Assembly (NCBI RefSeq): GCF_001029105.3 | Contig: NZ_CP011807.3 | Span: forward strand, 3,472,001 to 3,536,000 | DNA from: Pandoraea faecigallinarum | GTDB lineage: Bacteria > Pseudomonadota > Gammaproteobacteria > Burkholderiales > Burkholderiaceae | Length of the DNA stretch: 64,000 nucleotides | Direction: 5' to 3' | Part shown: one piece after another, positions 3,907 through 9,179 of the stretch | Layout: every line of letters begins with the position of its first letter | Position numbering within the stretch: the stretch's first letter is position 1 | Program-made: the position numbers and the translations under genes | The notes under the pieces: generated by a model | The model's database searches: none | Told to the model about the DNA's origin: nothing | The model's input: only the letters and a program-made list of their open reading frames with translations

Positions 3907-6147
3907 ATGAGTACGCAGCAACCCAGCATCATCTACACCCTGACCGACGAAGCACCGCTTCTGGCCACCAGTTCCTTCCTCCCGATCATCCGCACGTTCA
4001 CCGCTCCGGCGGGCGTGGCGATCGAGACGAGCGACATCTCGGTCGCGGGCCGTATCCTCGGCGAATTCCCCGAATTCCTGACCGAAGAGCAGCGCGTGCC
4101 GGACAACCTGGCCGAACTCGGTCGCCTGACGCAGGACCCGAACACGAACATCATCAAGCTGCCGAACATCAGCGCTTCGGTGTTCCAGCTCCAGAGCGCG
4201 ATCAAGGAACTCCAGTCGAAGGGCTACAAGGTCCCCGATTACCCGGAAGATCCGAAGACCGACGAAGAGAAGGCCATCCAGAAGCGCTACTCGAAGTGCC
4301 TCGGTTCGGCCGTGAACCCTGTCCTGCGCGAAGGCAACTCGGATCGCCGCGCGCCGCTCGCCGTCAAGAACTACGCCAGGAAGCACCCGCACAGCATGGG
4401 TGAGTGGAGCATGGCGTCGCGCACGCACGTCGCGCACATGAAGCATGGCGACTTCTACCACGGCGAAAAGTCGATGACGATCGACAAGGCCCGCGACGTG
4501 AAGATGGAACTCGTCACCAACAGCGGCAAGACGATTGTTCTGAAGCCGAAGGTCTCGCTGCTCGACGGCGAAATCATCGACAGCATGTTCATGAGCAAGA
4601 AGGCGCTGTGCGACTTCTACGAGGAACAGATGGAAGACGCCCGCAAGACCGGCGTCATGTTCTCGCTGCACGTGAAAGCGACCATGATGAAGGTCTCGCA
4701 CCCGATCGTGTTCGGCCACGCCGTGAAGATCTTCTACAAGGAAGCCTTCGAAAAGCACGGCAAGCTGTTCGACGAACTGGGTGTGAACGTCAACAACGGT
4801 CTCGTGAACCTGTACGAGAAGATCGAAGCGCTGCCGAGCACGCAGCGTGAAGAGATCATCCGCGATCTGCACGCCTGCCATGAACACCGCCCGGAACTGG
4901 CGATGGTCGACTCGGCCAAGGGGATCTCGAACCTGCACGCGCCGAACGACGTGATCGTCGACGCATCGATGCCCGCCATGATCCGAATCGGCGGCAAGAT
5001 GTGGGGCGCCGATGGCCGTCCGAAGGACACGAAGGCCGTGATTCCGGAAAGCACGTTCGCCCGCATCTATCAGGAAATCATCAACTTCTGCAAAACGAAC
5101 GGCGCATTCGACCCGACCACGATGGGTACGGTACCGAACGTCGGCCTGATGGCGCAGAAAGCAGAAGAGTATGGCTCGCACGACAAGACGTTCGAGATCG
5201 CCGAAGACGGCGTGGCGAACATCGTCGACATTGCCACGGGTGAAGTGCTGCTCTCGCAAAACGTGGAAGCCGGCGACATCTGGCGCATGTGCCAGGTCAA
5301 GGACGCGCCGATCCGCGACTGGGTGAAGCTCGCCGTGAACCGTGTGCGCAACTCGGGCATGCCGGCCGTGTTCTGGCTCGACCCGTACCGTCCGCACGAA
5401 GCCGAACTGATCAAGAAGGTGGAAAAGTACCTGAAGGATCACGACACCAACGGTCTCGACATCCAGATCATGTCGCAGGTGCGCGCCATGCGCTACACGC
5501 TCGAGCGCGTGATCCGCGGCCTGGACACGATTTCGGTGACTGGCAACATTCTGCGCGACTACCTGACCGACCTGTTCCCGATCATGGAACTGGGCACCAG
5601 CGCCAAGATGCTCTCCATCGTGCCGCTGATGGCCGGTGGCGGTATGTACGAAACGGGCGCCGGCGGTTCGGCACCGAAGCACGTCAAGCAGTTGGTGGAA
5701 GAAAACCACCTGCGCTGGGACTCGCTGGGTGAATTCCTGGCACTGGCCGTTTCGCTGGAAGATCTGGGTATCAAGACGGGTAACGAACGCGCCAAGATCC
5801 TGGCCAGGACGCTCGACGCCGCAACGGGCAAGCTGCTCGACAACAACAAGGGTCCCTCGCCGAAGACCGGCGAGTTGGACAACCGCGGCAGCCAGTTCTA
5901 TCTGTCGATGTACTGGGCGCAGGAACTGGCCGGGCAGAAGGACGACGCCGAACTGGCCAAGCTGTTCGCACCGCTCGCCAAGCAACTGACCGAGAACGAG
6001 AAGACGATCGTGGGCGAACTCGCCGACGTGCAAGGCAAGCCGACCGACATCGGCGGTTACTACAAGCCGGACTTCGAAAAGCTCGAACAGGTCATGCGCC
6101 CGAGCAAGACGTTCAACGCGGCACTGGCGAGCGTCGCAACGGCGTAA
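3907..6147 (+). CDS. icd: NADP-dependent isocitrate dehydrogenase, monomeric type
   Basis: Oxidatively decarboxylates isocitrate to 2-oxoglutarate with NADP in the TCA cycle; cytoplasmic. The 746-residue length and the opening [20 protein letters not shown] are those of the monomeric IDH family, not the 415-residue dimeric enzyme. The substrate-binding segment [11 protein letters not shown] lies near residue 140, followed by the conserved [27 protein letters not shown] block. The ATG at 3907 matches the family N-terminus; a TTG at 3889 would add six residues. The gene stands alone, with a perfect palindrome upstream and a hairpin terminator downstream that has been split by an insertion sequence. 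Its 2-oxoglutarate product links it to the NAD-glutamate dehydrogenase further along the window. Confidence 0.97.
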
Positions 6148-6208
6148 GTCGCAGCGACTCGACCCGGGCGGCCTGCAAGGGTTGCCCGACAGTCGGCAGA
6201 CGGAAAAA

Positions 6209-6236
6209 AAGCTGGTCCATTCCCATGGACCAGCTT
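6209..6236. terminator. icd terminator hairpin, left copy (target-site duplication)
   Basis: A 12-bp perfect stem (AAGCTGGTCCAT / ATGGACCAGCTT) closes a TCCC loop. It is preceded by a run of As but followed by the insertion-sequence end instead of Ts. In this state it can terminate only leftward transcription, that is, the transposase message. The same 28 bases recur in direct orientation at 7806-7833. Confidence 0.85.
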
Positions 6237-7805
6237 CAGATTGCTGACGAACCCCTCGTTTTTCGGAGCGAGGGGTTTTATCTTTTAGGCAAGGGCGAAT
6301 GGGCAGCGTAAGGGCGCGCACATTGAGAGACAAGCCCTCAGGACGCTCGTGAGCCACCGAAACGGGCGCCAAAGGGACGAACGCTCGCCTAAACGCGCCC
6401 GTAGGCGCGCCACCAGCATCGCAATTTTTTTGATGTTCTGCGCCGCCGCAGCCAACAAGCACTGCTCGGCCACCTTGCGCAGCCCGCGCATGCGCGCATA
6501 GCGATGCCCATGCAGTTGCTTGGCATCGGCAAAGCTGCGTTCCACCGTCTCCTTGCGCCGCGCGTAAATGCGTCGCCCCCACTCGCTCAGCCGCCTCGCG
6601 TCCACCCGCTGCTTGGCGCGCTCCCAGACGTGGCGCGTCACCACCTTCACCGCGTTGGCACTGTTCGTGCACTGTGCTCGTACCGGGCAGCACCGGCATA
6701 TCCGAGCATCGGATTTGTATTCTCGATAGCCGAGCCGGTTAGTCGTGCTGTACGGCAGCGCCTGTCCCTGCGGGCACACGTACTCGTTGCGGTACGCGTC
6801 GTATTGGAACTGCCGTTTGTAGAACAGCCCCGGCTTGTGGTTCGGCGTGCGATAGCCCATCACCCCGGCAATCTCCCGCTCCTCGAGCCCCTGGCACACC
6901 GCCGGCGTGAAGTAGCCAGCATCCAGCCCCACCGCTTCCACCTTGAACTCGAAGCGCTCGCGCTGTCGATCCAGCCGCTCCAGATACGGCTGGCTGTCGT
7001 GCACCGAGGCCGGCGTCACATGCGTATCGGTGATGATCGCGTGCTTGGCGTCCACCGTGCGGTGGTCCAGATAGAAGAAGCCCTTCGGCTTGTCGTCCCG
7101 CACCATGTAGCCGCTGTCCGGATCGGTCCGGCTAATCTTGGTGTCCTTGCTCGACGGCGGCTCATCGTCGTCCCGATTCAGCGGCTTCTTGCCATGCGCG
7201 GCCCGGTCCGCATCCACTGCCGCATTGAGCTTCTCCAGATAGGCCGCAGGCGTCTGTTCCAGCTTTACCACGTCGAACTTGTTCTTGTTCGCGTTGGCCT
7301 TCAGGTGCGTGCTGTCGGTGTACAGCACACGGCCATCGACCAGACCACGGCCCATCGCCTGGCGCACGATCTCGTCGAAGATCTCCTGATACACCGTCGT
7401 GTCCGTGAAGCGTCGGCGGCGATTCTGTGAGAACGTCGACGCATCCGGCACCTTGTCGGTCAGCCGAAACCGGGCGAACCACCGATAGGCGACGTTGACC
7501 TGGACCTCGCGCATCAACTGCCGCTCACTGCGCACTCCAAACAGGTAGCCGATGAACAGCAGCTTGAACATCACCACCGGATCGAGCGCCGGACGACCGT
7601 TGTCTGCGCAGTACAGATGCGCGACCTTTTCGCGGATGAATTCGAAATCCACTGCCGCGTCGATCTGGCGCAGCAGGTGGTCCTTCGGCACGAGTTCCTC
7701 GAGCGTCACCATCTCGAGTTCGTGCTGCGTGGGCGTCGGGATCTTTAGCATCCTGCTATTAAAAAACAAAACCCTCGCACTTGGCGAGGGTTTGTCAGCA
7801 ATCTG
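6237..7805 (-). mobile_element. IS1182-family insertion sequence, complete
   Basis: The element is 1569 bases, bounded by inverted repeats beginning CAGATTGCTGAC at both ends (6237 inward; 7805 inward on the other strand). It is flanked by a 28-bp direct duplication that is a whole terminator hairpin. Each end carries its own hairpin just inside the inverted repeat: stem 6250-6258/6269-6277, followed rightward by TTATCTTTT, and stem 7769-7778/7784-7793, followed leftward by a T-rich run. These face transcription entering from the host on either side. One transposase gene fills the element. Ends, duplication and frame are intact, so it may be active. Confidence 0.9.
6285..7751 (-). CDS. IS1182-family transposase
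   Basis: A DDE transposase of 488 residues that moves the surrounding element. An N-terminal DUF772-type region (PALDPVVMFKLLFIGYLFGVRSERQLMREV, about residues 55-85) precedes the catalytic core. The acidic triad is visible in VLYTDSTHLKAN, VEAVGLDAGYF and RKETVERSFADAKQLHG. A cluster of cysteines (CRCCPVRAQC) near the C-terminus is typical of the family. I chose the ATG at 7751 (MLKIPTPTQHELEMV); the open frame continues into the inverted repeat and hairpin up to 7823, but that part is not conserved coding sequence. A terminator-like hairpin directly upstream should keep host read-through from driving it. The frame is intact. Confidence 0.93.
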   Translation of the reverse strand: MLKIPTPTQHELEMVTLEELVPKDHLLRQIDAAVDFEFIREKVAHLYCADNGRPALDPVVMFKLLFIGYLFGVRSERQLMREVQVNVAYRWFARFRLTDKVPDASTFSQNRRRRFTDTTVYQEIFDEIVRQAMGRGLVDGRVLYTDSTHLKANANKNKFDVVKLEQTPAAYLEKLNAAVDADRAAHGKKPLNRDDDEPPSSKDTKISRTDPDSGYMVRDDKPKGFFYLDHRTVDAKHAIITDTHVTPASVHDSQPYLERLDRQRERFEFKVEAVGLDAGYFTPAVCQGLEEREIAGVMGYRTPNHKPGLFYKRQFQYDAYRNEYVCPQGQALPYSTTNRLGYREYKSDARICRCCPVRAQCTNSANAVKVVTRHVWERAKQRVDARRLSEWGRRIYARRKETVERSFADAKQLHGHRYARMRGLRKVAEQCLLAAAAQNIKKIAMLVARLRARLGERSSLWRPFRWLTSVLRACLSMCAPLRCPFALA

Positions 7806-7833
7806 AAGCTGGTCCATTCCCATGGACCAGCTT
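7806..7833. terminator. icd/MFS terminator hairpin, right copy (target-site duplication)
   Basis: This is the second copy of the 28-base hairpin, here followed by a T run (7834-7838) but preceded by the insertion-sequence end. It can terminate rightward transcription only. Before insertion, one hairpin with As on the left and Ts on the right must have served icd and the convergent MFS gene together. Confidence 0.85.
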
Positions 7834-7868
7834 TTTTCGTTAACAGCCGCTCACACTGCGCGGAACGA

Positions 7869-9179
7869 TCAGCGGTTGACCTGCTCCTTCGATTGCGTCA
7901 ATGCCAGCACGGCGCCCAGCGCCAGCGCGGCGGAAACGCAGTACATCCCCGCGTTGGTGCTCTGCGTGACGTCCTTGAGCCAGCCGATGATGAACGGGCT
8001 CACGAAGCCTGCGAGGTTACCGATCGAGTTGATCATGCCGATGGCTGCCGCGGCGGAGCCGCCGACGAGCAATGCGCTCGGGTACGTCCAGAACACCGGC
8101 ATCGTTGCCAGCATGCCGGCCGTGCCGACCGACAGGGCCACCATCGCGAGCGGCACATTGCTGCCCCAGACGGTGCTCAGGTACAGACCGGCGGCGCCGG
8201 CGAACGACACCACGGCGAAGTGCCAGCGTCGCTCACGCGTGCGGTCCGAGCTGCGCGCCACACCGATCATGCTGACGACGGCGCAAGCGTAAGGAATCGC
8301 GGTCAGCAGCCCCACGTCGAGCGCGCTTTTCACGCCACTGGCCTTGATGAGCGTCGGCAGGTAAAAGCCGATGCCGTAGAGGCCCATCATGCAGCAGAAG
8401 TAAATCACCGCCATGAGCCACACGCGGCCGTTCGCGAACACCGACGCAACCGACTGCGGCGCCTTGCCGGCGCTGTCCTGCGCGATGTTGTGTTCGAGCA
8501 CCGCCTTTTCCTCTTCCGTGAGCCACTTCGCGGCGCGGATGCCGTTCGGCAGGTACATCAGCGTGATCACGCCGAGAATCACCGACGGAATGGCTTCGAT
8601 GAAGAACAGCCACTGCCAGGCCTTCCAGCCGCCCACGCCGTTGAACGCTTGCAGAATCCAACCCGAGAGCGGGCCGCCGAACACACCTGCGACAGGGATC
8701 CCGATCATGAACAACGCGTTCATACGGCCACGGCGCTGTGCCGGGAACCAGTACGTGAGGTACAGCACGATGCCGGGGAAGAAGCCCGCTTCGGCCACAC
8801 CGAGCAGGAAGCGCACGACATAGAACTGCGTGGGCGTCGTCACGAACAGCGTTGCTGCCGAGAGCACGGCCCAGGAGATCATGATGCGCGCGATCCAGCG
8901 GCGCGCACCGACCTTGTGCATGATGATGTTACTCGGCACTTCGAAGAAGAAGTAACCGATGAAGAAGATACCGGCGCCCAGACCGTAGACGGTCTCGCTG
9001 AACTGGAGGTCGTTCAGCATTTGCAGCTTGGCGAAGCCAACATTCACGCGGTCCAGATAGGCCGCGACATAACACAGGAAAAGGAACGGCAACAAACGCC
9101 AGGTCGCTTTTGCGTAGGCTTGCGCCTCGATCTCGCGCGTGTGCGCGTTGGCTTTGACACCGTTAGCGATAGTACTCAT
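7869..9179 (-). CDS. MFS transporter, anion:cation symporter (ACS) family
   Basis: A 436-residue, 12-helix inner-membrane permease. The N-terminal signature LPFLFLCYVAAYLDRVNVGFAKLQM and the segment GYFFFEVPSNIIMHKVGARRWIARIM are characteristic of the ACS branch, which takes up organic anions such as tartrate, phthalate or hexuronates. A central cytoplasmic loop (about residues 205-240, LPNGIRAAKWLTEEEKAVLE) separates the two halves. The start at 9179 has GTGGAG just upstream; the longer frame to 9257 has no family support. The substrate cannot be told from sequence, and no catabolic genes are adjacent. It converges on icd across the terminator now split by the IS element. Confidence 0.88.
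   Translation of the reverse strand: MSTIANGVKANAHTREIEAQAYAKATWRLLPFLFLCYVAAYLDRVNVGFAKLQMLNDLQFSETVYGLGAGIFFIGYFFFEVPSNIIMHKVGARRWIARIMISWAVLSAATLFVTTPTQFYVVRFLLGVAEAGFFPGIVLYLTYWFPAQRRGRMNALFMIGIPVAGVFGGPLSGWILQAFNGVGGWKAWQWLFFIEAIPSVILGVITLMYLPNGIRAAKWLTEEEKAVLEHNIAQDSAGKAPQSVASVFANGRVWLMAVIYFCCMMGLYGIGFYLPTLIKASGVKSALDVGLLTAIPYACAVVSMIGVARSSDRTRERRWHFAVVSFAGAAGLYLSTVWGSNVPLAMVALSVGTAGMLATMPVFWTYPSALLVGGSAAAAIGMINSIGNLAGFVSPFIIGWLKDVTQSTNAGMYCVSAALALGAVLALTQSKEQVNR

Follow-up and report, generated by a model that had tools for sequence, protein, structure and literature searches.

The window, a stretch of 64,000 nucleotides of the Pandoraea faecigallinarum chromosome, carries an IS1182-family element between icd and a convergent MFS gene (Table 1). 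The element encodes a single transposase on the minus strand; the start of the longer open reading frame falls within the duplicated hairpin, and the conserved start lies at 7751. The protein scores 498.7 bits against the curated IS1182 model NF033551 (cut-off 270), contains the DDE_Tnp_1 and DDE_Tnp_1_6 domains and retains an intact DDE triad, which is conserved in both IS1182 transposase groups compared. Its predicted structure (mean pLDDT 82) gives four matches at E ≤ 0.001, all of Tn5 or piggyBac type and with low TM values of 0.27-0.34, and a sequence search of the solved structures returned no transposase and two unrelated matches at E 0.75. Four cysteines located between the second aspartate and the glutamate (C326, C352, C355 and C361, numbered from 7751) are also conserved in both groups, and this cluster may bind zinc. 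A consensus scan around the element found no sigma-70 promoter match.

Table 1. Features of the element and of its junctions (positions in the window; strand given where a feature has one)
Feature	Position	Strand	Basis or remark
A-tract of the old two-way terminator	6204-6208		Retained with the left hairpin; would act as T-run for minus-strand transcripts exiting the element; sequence
Left host hairpin copy (28 nt target duplication)	6209-6236		Identical to 7806-7833
IS1182-family element, 1569 bp	6237-7805	- (transposase strand)	Family model; 19 copies; 19 different flanks fix the ends
Terminal inverted repeat CAGATTGCTGAC, transposase 3' side	6237-6248		Tip comparison
Element-borne inward terminator-like hairpin, tail TTATCTTTT	6250-6277	+	Predicted to stop the icd transcript; position conserved in relatives
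Transposase gene, conserved start MLKIPTPT at 7751	6285-7751	-	DDE residues D146, D277, E404, numbered from 7751
Element-borne inward terminator-like hairpin upstream of the transposase, tail TGTTTTTTAAT	7769-7793	-	Predicted to stop the MFS transcript
Terminal inverted repeat GTCAGCAATCTG, transposase 5' side	7794-7805		Tip comparison
Right host hairpin copy	7806-7833		Identical to 6209-6236
T-tract of the old terminator, retained with the right hairpin	7834-7837	+	Plus-strand terminator-like site 7805-7834

The element ends in perfect 12-bp inverted repeats, CAGATTGCTGAC and its reverse complement, as expected of a member of the IS1182 family. Directly outside the tips lie the two identical host hairpins of 28 nt, each with a 12-bp stem and a 4-nt loop. 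The original prediction, that the insertion had duplicated one complete 28-base hairpin and deprived each host copy of one flank, is confirmed: the left copy keeps the upstream A-tract, with the element beginning directly after 6236, and the right copy keeps the T-tract.

A consensus scan of positions 6050-7950 returned six terminator-like sites against 1.7 expected from shuffles. Two of them are short stems within the transposase gene; the other four (plus strand 6249-6278 and 7805-7834, minus strand 6237-6208 and 7793-7769) correspond to the junction hairpins, all of which, the two of the host as well as the two of the element, fold better than every shuffle (0/200 shuffles fold as well as either element-borne hairpin, z -3.9 and -4.2). 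The element's hairpins read inward and the host copies outward, each host copy using its one retained tract. This agrees with the earlier claims that the element supplies its own hairpin for the icd direction and another for the MFS direction, and that the left host hairpin with its As is terminator-like on the minus strand. Taken together, the host copies and the element's hairpins lead to the prediction that each junction stops transcription both ways; transcripts entering and leaving the element would be stopped there, and the neighbouring genes would be kept separated.

Copies of the element and their target hairpins

The genome contains 19 complete copies of the element on one contig, with 98-100% DNA identity. 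The exact tip pattern is found 38 times, 19 in each direction, and consequently there are no solo ends carrying this pattern. No strand rule is apparent among the copies: 10 have a minus-strand transposase and 9 a plus-strand one. They span positions 907,257-4,791,179; dnaA lies at 1,264, and the regions of about 4.79-5.24 Mb and 0-0.907 Mb are empty, so that ~1.36 of 5.24 Mb around the likely origin is without a copy. Two subtypes are distinguished by what follows the internal hairpin, namely TTGGCTTTT in 8/19 copies (L009, L010, L012-L017) and the TATC type in 11/19; from these subtypes, two transposing lineages of the element may be active.

Each of the 19 copies lies between exact direct repeats of 18-28 nt, and the repeated unit equals one complete terminator-like hairpin. 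The target hairpins have stems of 7-12 bp, loops of 3-6 nt and 19 different sequences; in 19/19 copies the 8 nt preceding the stem contain four or more A or the 8 nt following it four or more T, and in 15/19 both. Left and right flanks taken from different copies share a 16-mer in 0/342 pairs. As background, 400 kb of the same chromosome in 20 stretches was searched with the same hairpin rule, yielding 253 hairpins, of which 48 are terminator-like; for 0.084% of the background positions, the foot of a terminator-like hairpin is no more than 3 nt away. The complete set of repeats, the absence of shared 16-mers and this low background indicate that hairpin duplication is not due to chance. Absence of a hairpin preference among other copies had been named beforehand as an outcome that would refute the original prediction; the preference is found in all 19 own copies and in most relatives.

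The state of the target before insertion is apparent from sister species. The transposase is matched at E ≤ 1e-60 in 3/32 genomes of the genus (in one, G025, in part only), and the icd 3' region was located in 31/32, with 30 loci compared. All 25 sister icd loci at least 88% identical carry a single unbroken hairpin with A and T flanks after icd (assessed by eye, some with one mispair), and the four loci less than 81% identical are, also by eye, without such a single hairpin. A strict rule permitting no mispair detects a strong hairpin in 23/30 icd loci, a count that includes the occupied site itself and L059, where the hairpin is a different, upstream one. At a second site, L014, for which 30/32 genomes matched and 12 loci were taken, one of them our own, a single hairpin is present in 11/11 sister loci examined. 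The position of the icd terminator is constant across the sister species (L044-L068) and its stem sequence and loop vary; these sister terminators represent a natural series of A/T-flanked perfect palindromes.

The search for relatives covered 398 phylum genomes, 45 of which gave a match at E ≤ 1e-60, 299 family genomes, of which 6 matched at E ≤ 1e-100, and a named collection, from which the best 80 of 135 loci were taken; 134 loci entered the flank analysis. After removal of own copies, three duplicates and loci below 50% identity, 88 were left, and 30 of these were cut by contig ends. The 58 untruncated relatives come from several phyla and have a transposase at least 50% identical; in 40 of them one and the same hairpin flanks both ends, 37 exactly and 3 with 1-2 mismatches. 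Of the remaining 18, nine exhibit a different hairpin on each side (the left tip of L140 is doubtful, and L144 has the same stem with an inverted loop), which is the product that would be expected of recombination between copies. Four have a hairpin on one side only, two have a hairpin at one tip and another tip that was not found, and three (L142, L143 and L164) fail the hairpin rule; in L164 an exact repeat of 15 nt folds into a 5-bp stem, and the hairpins of L142 are imperfect by eye. L167 and L171 have identical flanks and are not independent. An exact repeat of at least 16 nt is shared by 57/77 true left/right pairs, own copies included, versus 1/757 mismatched pairs. In L144, an Ignavibacteriae MAG, both ends display an equal 7-bp stem with the 3-nt loop reverse-complemented on one side (TCC vs GGA); this flipped hairpin might be what cruciform resolution leaves.

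An exact 16-nt repeat was found in 0/24 loci below 50% identity (23 at 25-33%, L169 at 42%), which were scored for direct repeats only, so that hairpin replacement would escape this count. In L169, a Tenericutes MAG, the 5' tip comes after a hairpin and five T, at the end of the T-tract rather than at the stem foot, and the opposite side has no repeat. Plasmid and phage copies at 38-65% identity carry the hairpin repeat (L186, L188, L191). No repeat is common to both sides of the two ISEfa7-type copies from Enterococcus (44%): L187 shows a right hairpin and an imperfect left one, and L193 a right hairpin only. For L192 a clear element end was not found, and the hairpin repeat is absent from ISCfr1 (L189) and ISPpu20 (L190). 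In a tree of 79 transposases (74 different), obtained by a quick method whose program warned of long branches and leaving out IS1272, for which the open piece comprises 330 aa, the 24 rows without hairpin repeat (22 survey loci, L189 and L190) are split from the other 55 with an SH-aLRT of 100. Of the 55 rows across that branch, 41 are hairpin-duplicating, and this side spans Pseudomonadota, Bacillota, Lentisphaerota, Thermodesulfobacteriota and Ignavibacteriota.

The replacement hairpins near the tips, described in the original prediction for a single element, are conserved in the clade. Hairpins that read inward and have four or more T in the next 8 nt are present at 47/54 testable 5' ends and 41/51 testable 3' ends (relatives at least 50% identical and the window element), giving 88/105 ends versus 22/590 control positions inside the transposase gene in the same test. 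In relatives these hairpins mostly begin 9-15 nt from the tip; the tips read CAGACTGCTGAC, followed by A/G-AA and then the stem, and the element hairpins consequently resemble the A/T-flanked targets. The 5'-end tails of relatives are often just four T, which makes strong termination there less sure than in the window element. At the seven closest 3' ends of the same geometry, 98.4% of cells pair and compensatory, both-side changes occur at 3/9 pairs, compared with at most 63.5% pairing for slid structures on the same ends; this count concerns 3' ends only, and its structure was named after the sequences had been inspected. RNAalifold on all relatives' ends gives 0 compensatory pairs for the 3' ends and 2 for the 5' ends, a low covariation that arises because the stems vary in length and are misaligned by MAFFT.

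Placement of the cut

Across 56 sites (19 own and 37 relatives), every repeat length from 17 to 29 nt is represented, and the repeat is symmetric about the loop in 48/56. This variable length, together with the loop symmetry, excludes a transpososome of fixed stagger as the source; a structure joining both feet would fit. In 44/56 sites, the left edge of the repeat lies 0-2 nt beyond the perfect palindrome's outermost G:C pair, and in the other 12 the palindrome has another G:C pair outside the repeat. Furthermore, the perfect palindrome extends past the repeat in 33/56 sites. The edge positions and the extended palindromes indicate that the cut falls at the foot of the G:C core rather than where the longest possible palindrome ends; the cut is consequently not at the base of the longest possible cruciform, and partial extrusion must be assumed. 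Since the repeat length tracks the hairpin, the cut is probably set by DNA structure. We hold with good confidence that insertion is guided by structure and duplicates the whole hairpin, and moderately favour a cruciform as the structure that brings the feet together.

Alternatively, RNA polymerase at terminators, or the nascent RNA hairpin formed there, could recruit the transposase, the DNA palindrome being irrelevant. The terminator-like character of 19/19 own targets, compared with 48/253 hairpins of the background, speaks for such recruitment, but this excess over other hairpins can equally stem from the loss of in-gene insertions. Moreover, the duplication is symmetric about the loop on both strands, and the targets are perfect palindromes and more two-sided than the background terminators (Mann-Whitney p = 0.009). 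A stem mispair or G-T is present in 0/19 targets versus 17/42 background terminators under the same looser rule (p = 0.0006); under a stricter terminator rule, 0/11 targets versus 6/21 background stems are imperfect and significance is lost (p = 0.07), with block shuffling giving ~6 chance matches in the looser background and 0 in the stricter one. Target stems without G-T or mispair point to DNA, since RNA hairpins tolerate G-U, and we consider recruitment through transcription unlikely. A first version of the stem-perfection test (169/210 background stems imperfect) was set aside, as chance hairpins made up most of its background matches.

Recognition of the B-DNA sequence, in which flanking A- and T-tracts, one to each side, direct the cut beside the G:C core and the hairpin is incidental, appears quite improbable. 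It would account for the composition of the own sites, where the repeat begins with A in 18/19 and ends with T in 14/19, with a mean of 5.5 A in the preceding 8 nt and 4.9 T in the following 8 nt; however, sites with just 2-3 A or T on one side are also used (L005, L007, L008, L015). In addition, a spacing of 17-29 bp rotates the second cut round the helix, a change that a rigid complex on B-DNA could hardly follow. Selection alone, with near-random insertions surviving only in intergenic terminators, is scarcely credible: 17/19 copies are separated from the nearest ORF edge on both sides by 28 nt or more, and 12/19 lie between convergent ORFs (crude ORF calls; an open frame comes within 1-2 nt of L005 and L012), but selection cannot make the repeat equal one whole hairpin of variable length at 19/19 sites, nor in relatives, and loci below 50% identity show no such repeat (0/24).

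In the structure-guided insertion proposed here, the DDE transposase would pick its target as a perfect hairpin-forming palindrome, which in practice means an A/T-flanked intrinsic terminator. This palindrome is most likely extruded as a cruciform; the repeat lengths and their symmetry suggest strand transfer to the feet of the extruded cruciform, whereby the element's two 3' ends would be joined to the hairpin's 5' foot, one per strand. Repair would then copy the whole hairpin to both sides, the product that is observed, and would leave each copy with one flank of the old terminator, as is also seen. With the inward hairpin found behind each terminal repeat, the resulting junction would act in both directions of transcription. 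Landing in terminators may, as originally suggested, be a deliberate low-damage strategy; an enzyme recognising perfect DNA palindromes with A/T flanks would arrive at terminators in any case, and the loss of harmful insertions would sharpen the pattern. Tentatively, the element could belong to a cross-phylum clade of DDE transposases with hairpin-set cut spacing, in which the end hairpins both insulate and are recognised, a single rule serving end and target.

Relation to known systems and significance

IS1272 / TnSha1, an IS1182-family element of staphylococci, targets inverted repeats or stem-loops without sequence consensus, several of them confirmed terminators, and removes the stem-loop wholly or partly, without target duplication (PMC5678879, PMC4923244). 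The hairpin target is common to IS1272 and the present element (19/19 here). In contrast, the present element duplicates the whole stem-loop, and removal of the IS1272 type is not encountered (19/19 copies; a single hairpin at both empty sites); the two transposases share ~24% identity over 47% of the length. Pathway b in Fig 13 of PMC5678879, in which the whole stem-loop is duplicated when the element is joined to the 5' feet of a cruciform, is drawn there as a possibility for IS1272. Its product, a whole stem-loop on both sides, is a possibility on paper in that figure, whereas here it is seen in 19/19 copies and in the clade.

For the IS1182 family as a whole, direct repeats ranging from 2 to 60 bp are given (PMC7335449), some members are described as targeting palindromic sequences (Siguier 2015, cited in PMC4923244 and PMC5678879), ISPse1 and the IS1182-like MITEs of Paracoccus are reported to have 4-bp repeats (PMC3281130, PMC11578231), and the family is among those over-represented between convergent genes (PMC9208149). 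The family at large shares its model, the DDE transposase and terminal inverted repeats with the present element; the hairpin repeat sets the latter apart from the loci below 50% identity, ISCfr1 and ISPpu20. In IS200-type elements, a hairpin within the element stops outside transcripts (PMC3196728), whereas the present element has a hairpin at both ends, close behind the terminal repeats, standing in for the split target terminator. In the portions of the open-licence literature covered, no report was found of an IS1182 subclade that regularly duplicates whole hairpins, nor of the paired internal terminators. Stem-loop targeting is known in the family from IS1272, a distant member.

The copies described here provide a real and very regular instance of the stem-loop-duplicating outcome once drawn for IS1272, and offer a possible explanation for the broad range of direct repeats among IS1182 elements. 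Each new insertion would record a cruciform, so that cruciform formation at terminators in living cells becomes testable. In practical terms, the targeting rule could serve for placing DNA between genes, and the duplicated hairpin is a clear guide to element ends in annotation. For the element itself, splitting a shared terminator and bringing the replacements along could allow many copies to sit beside active genes.
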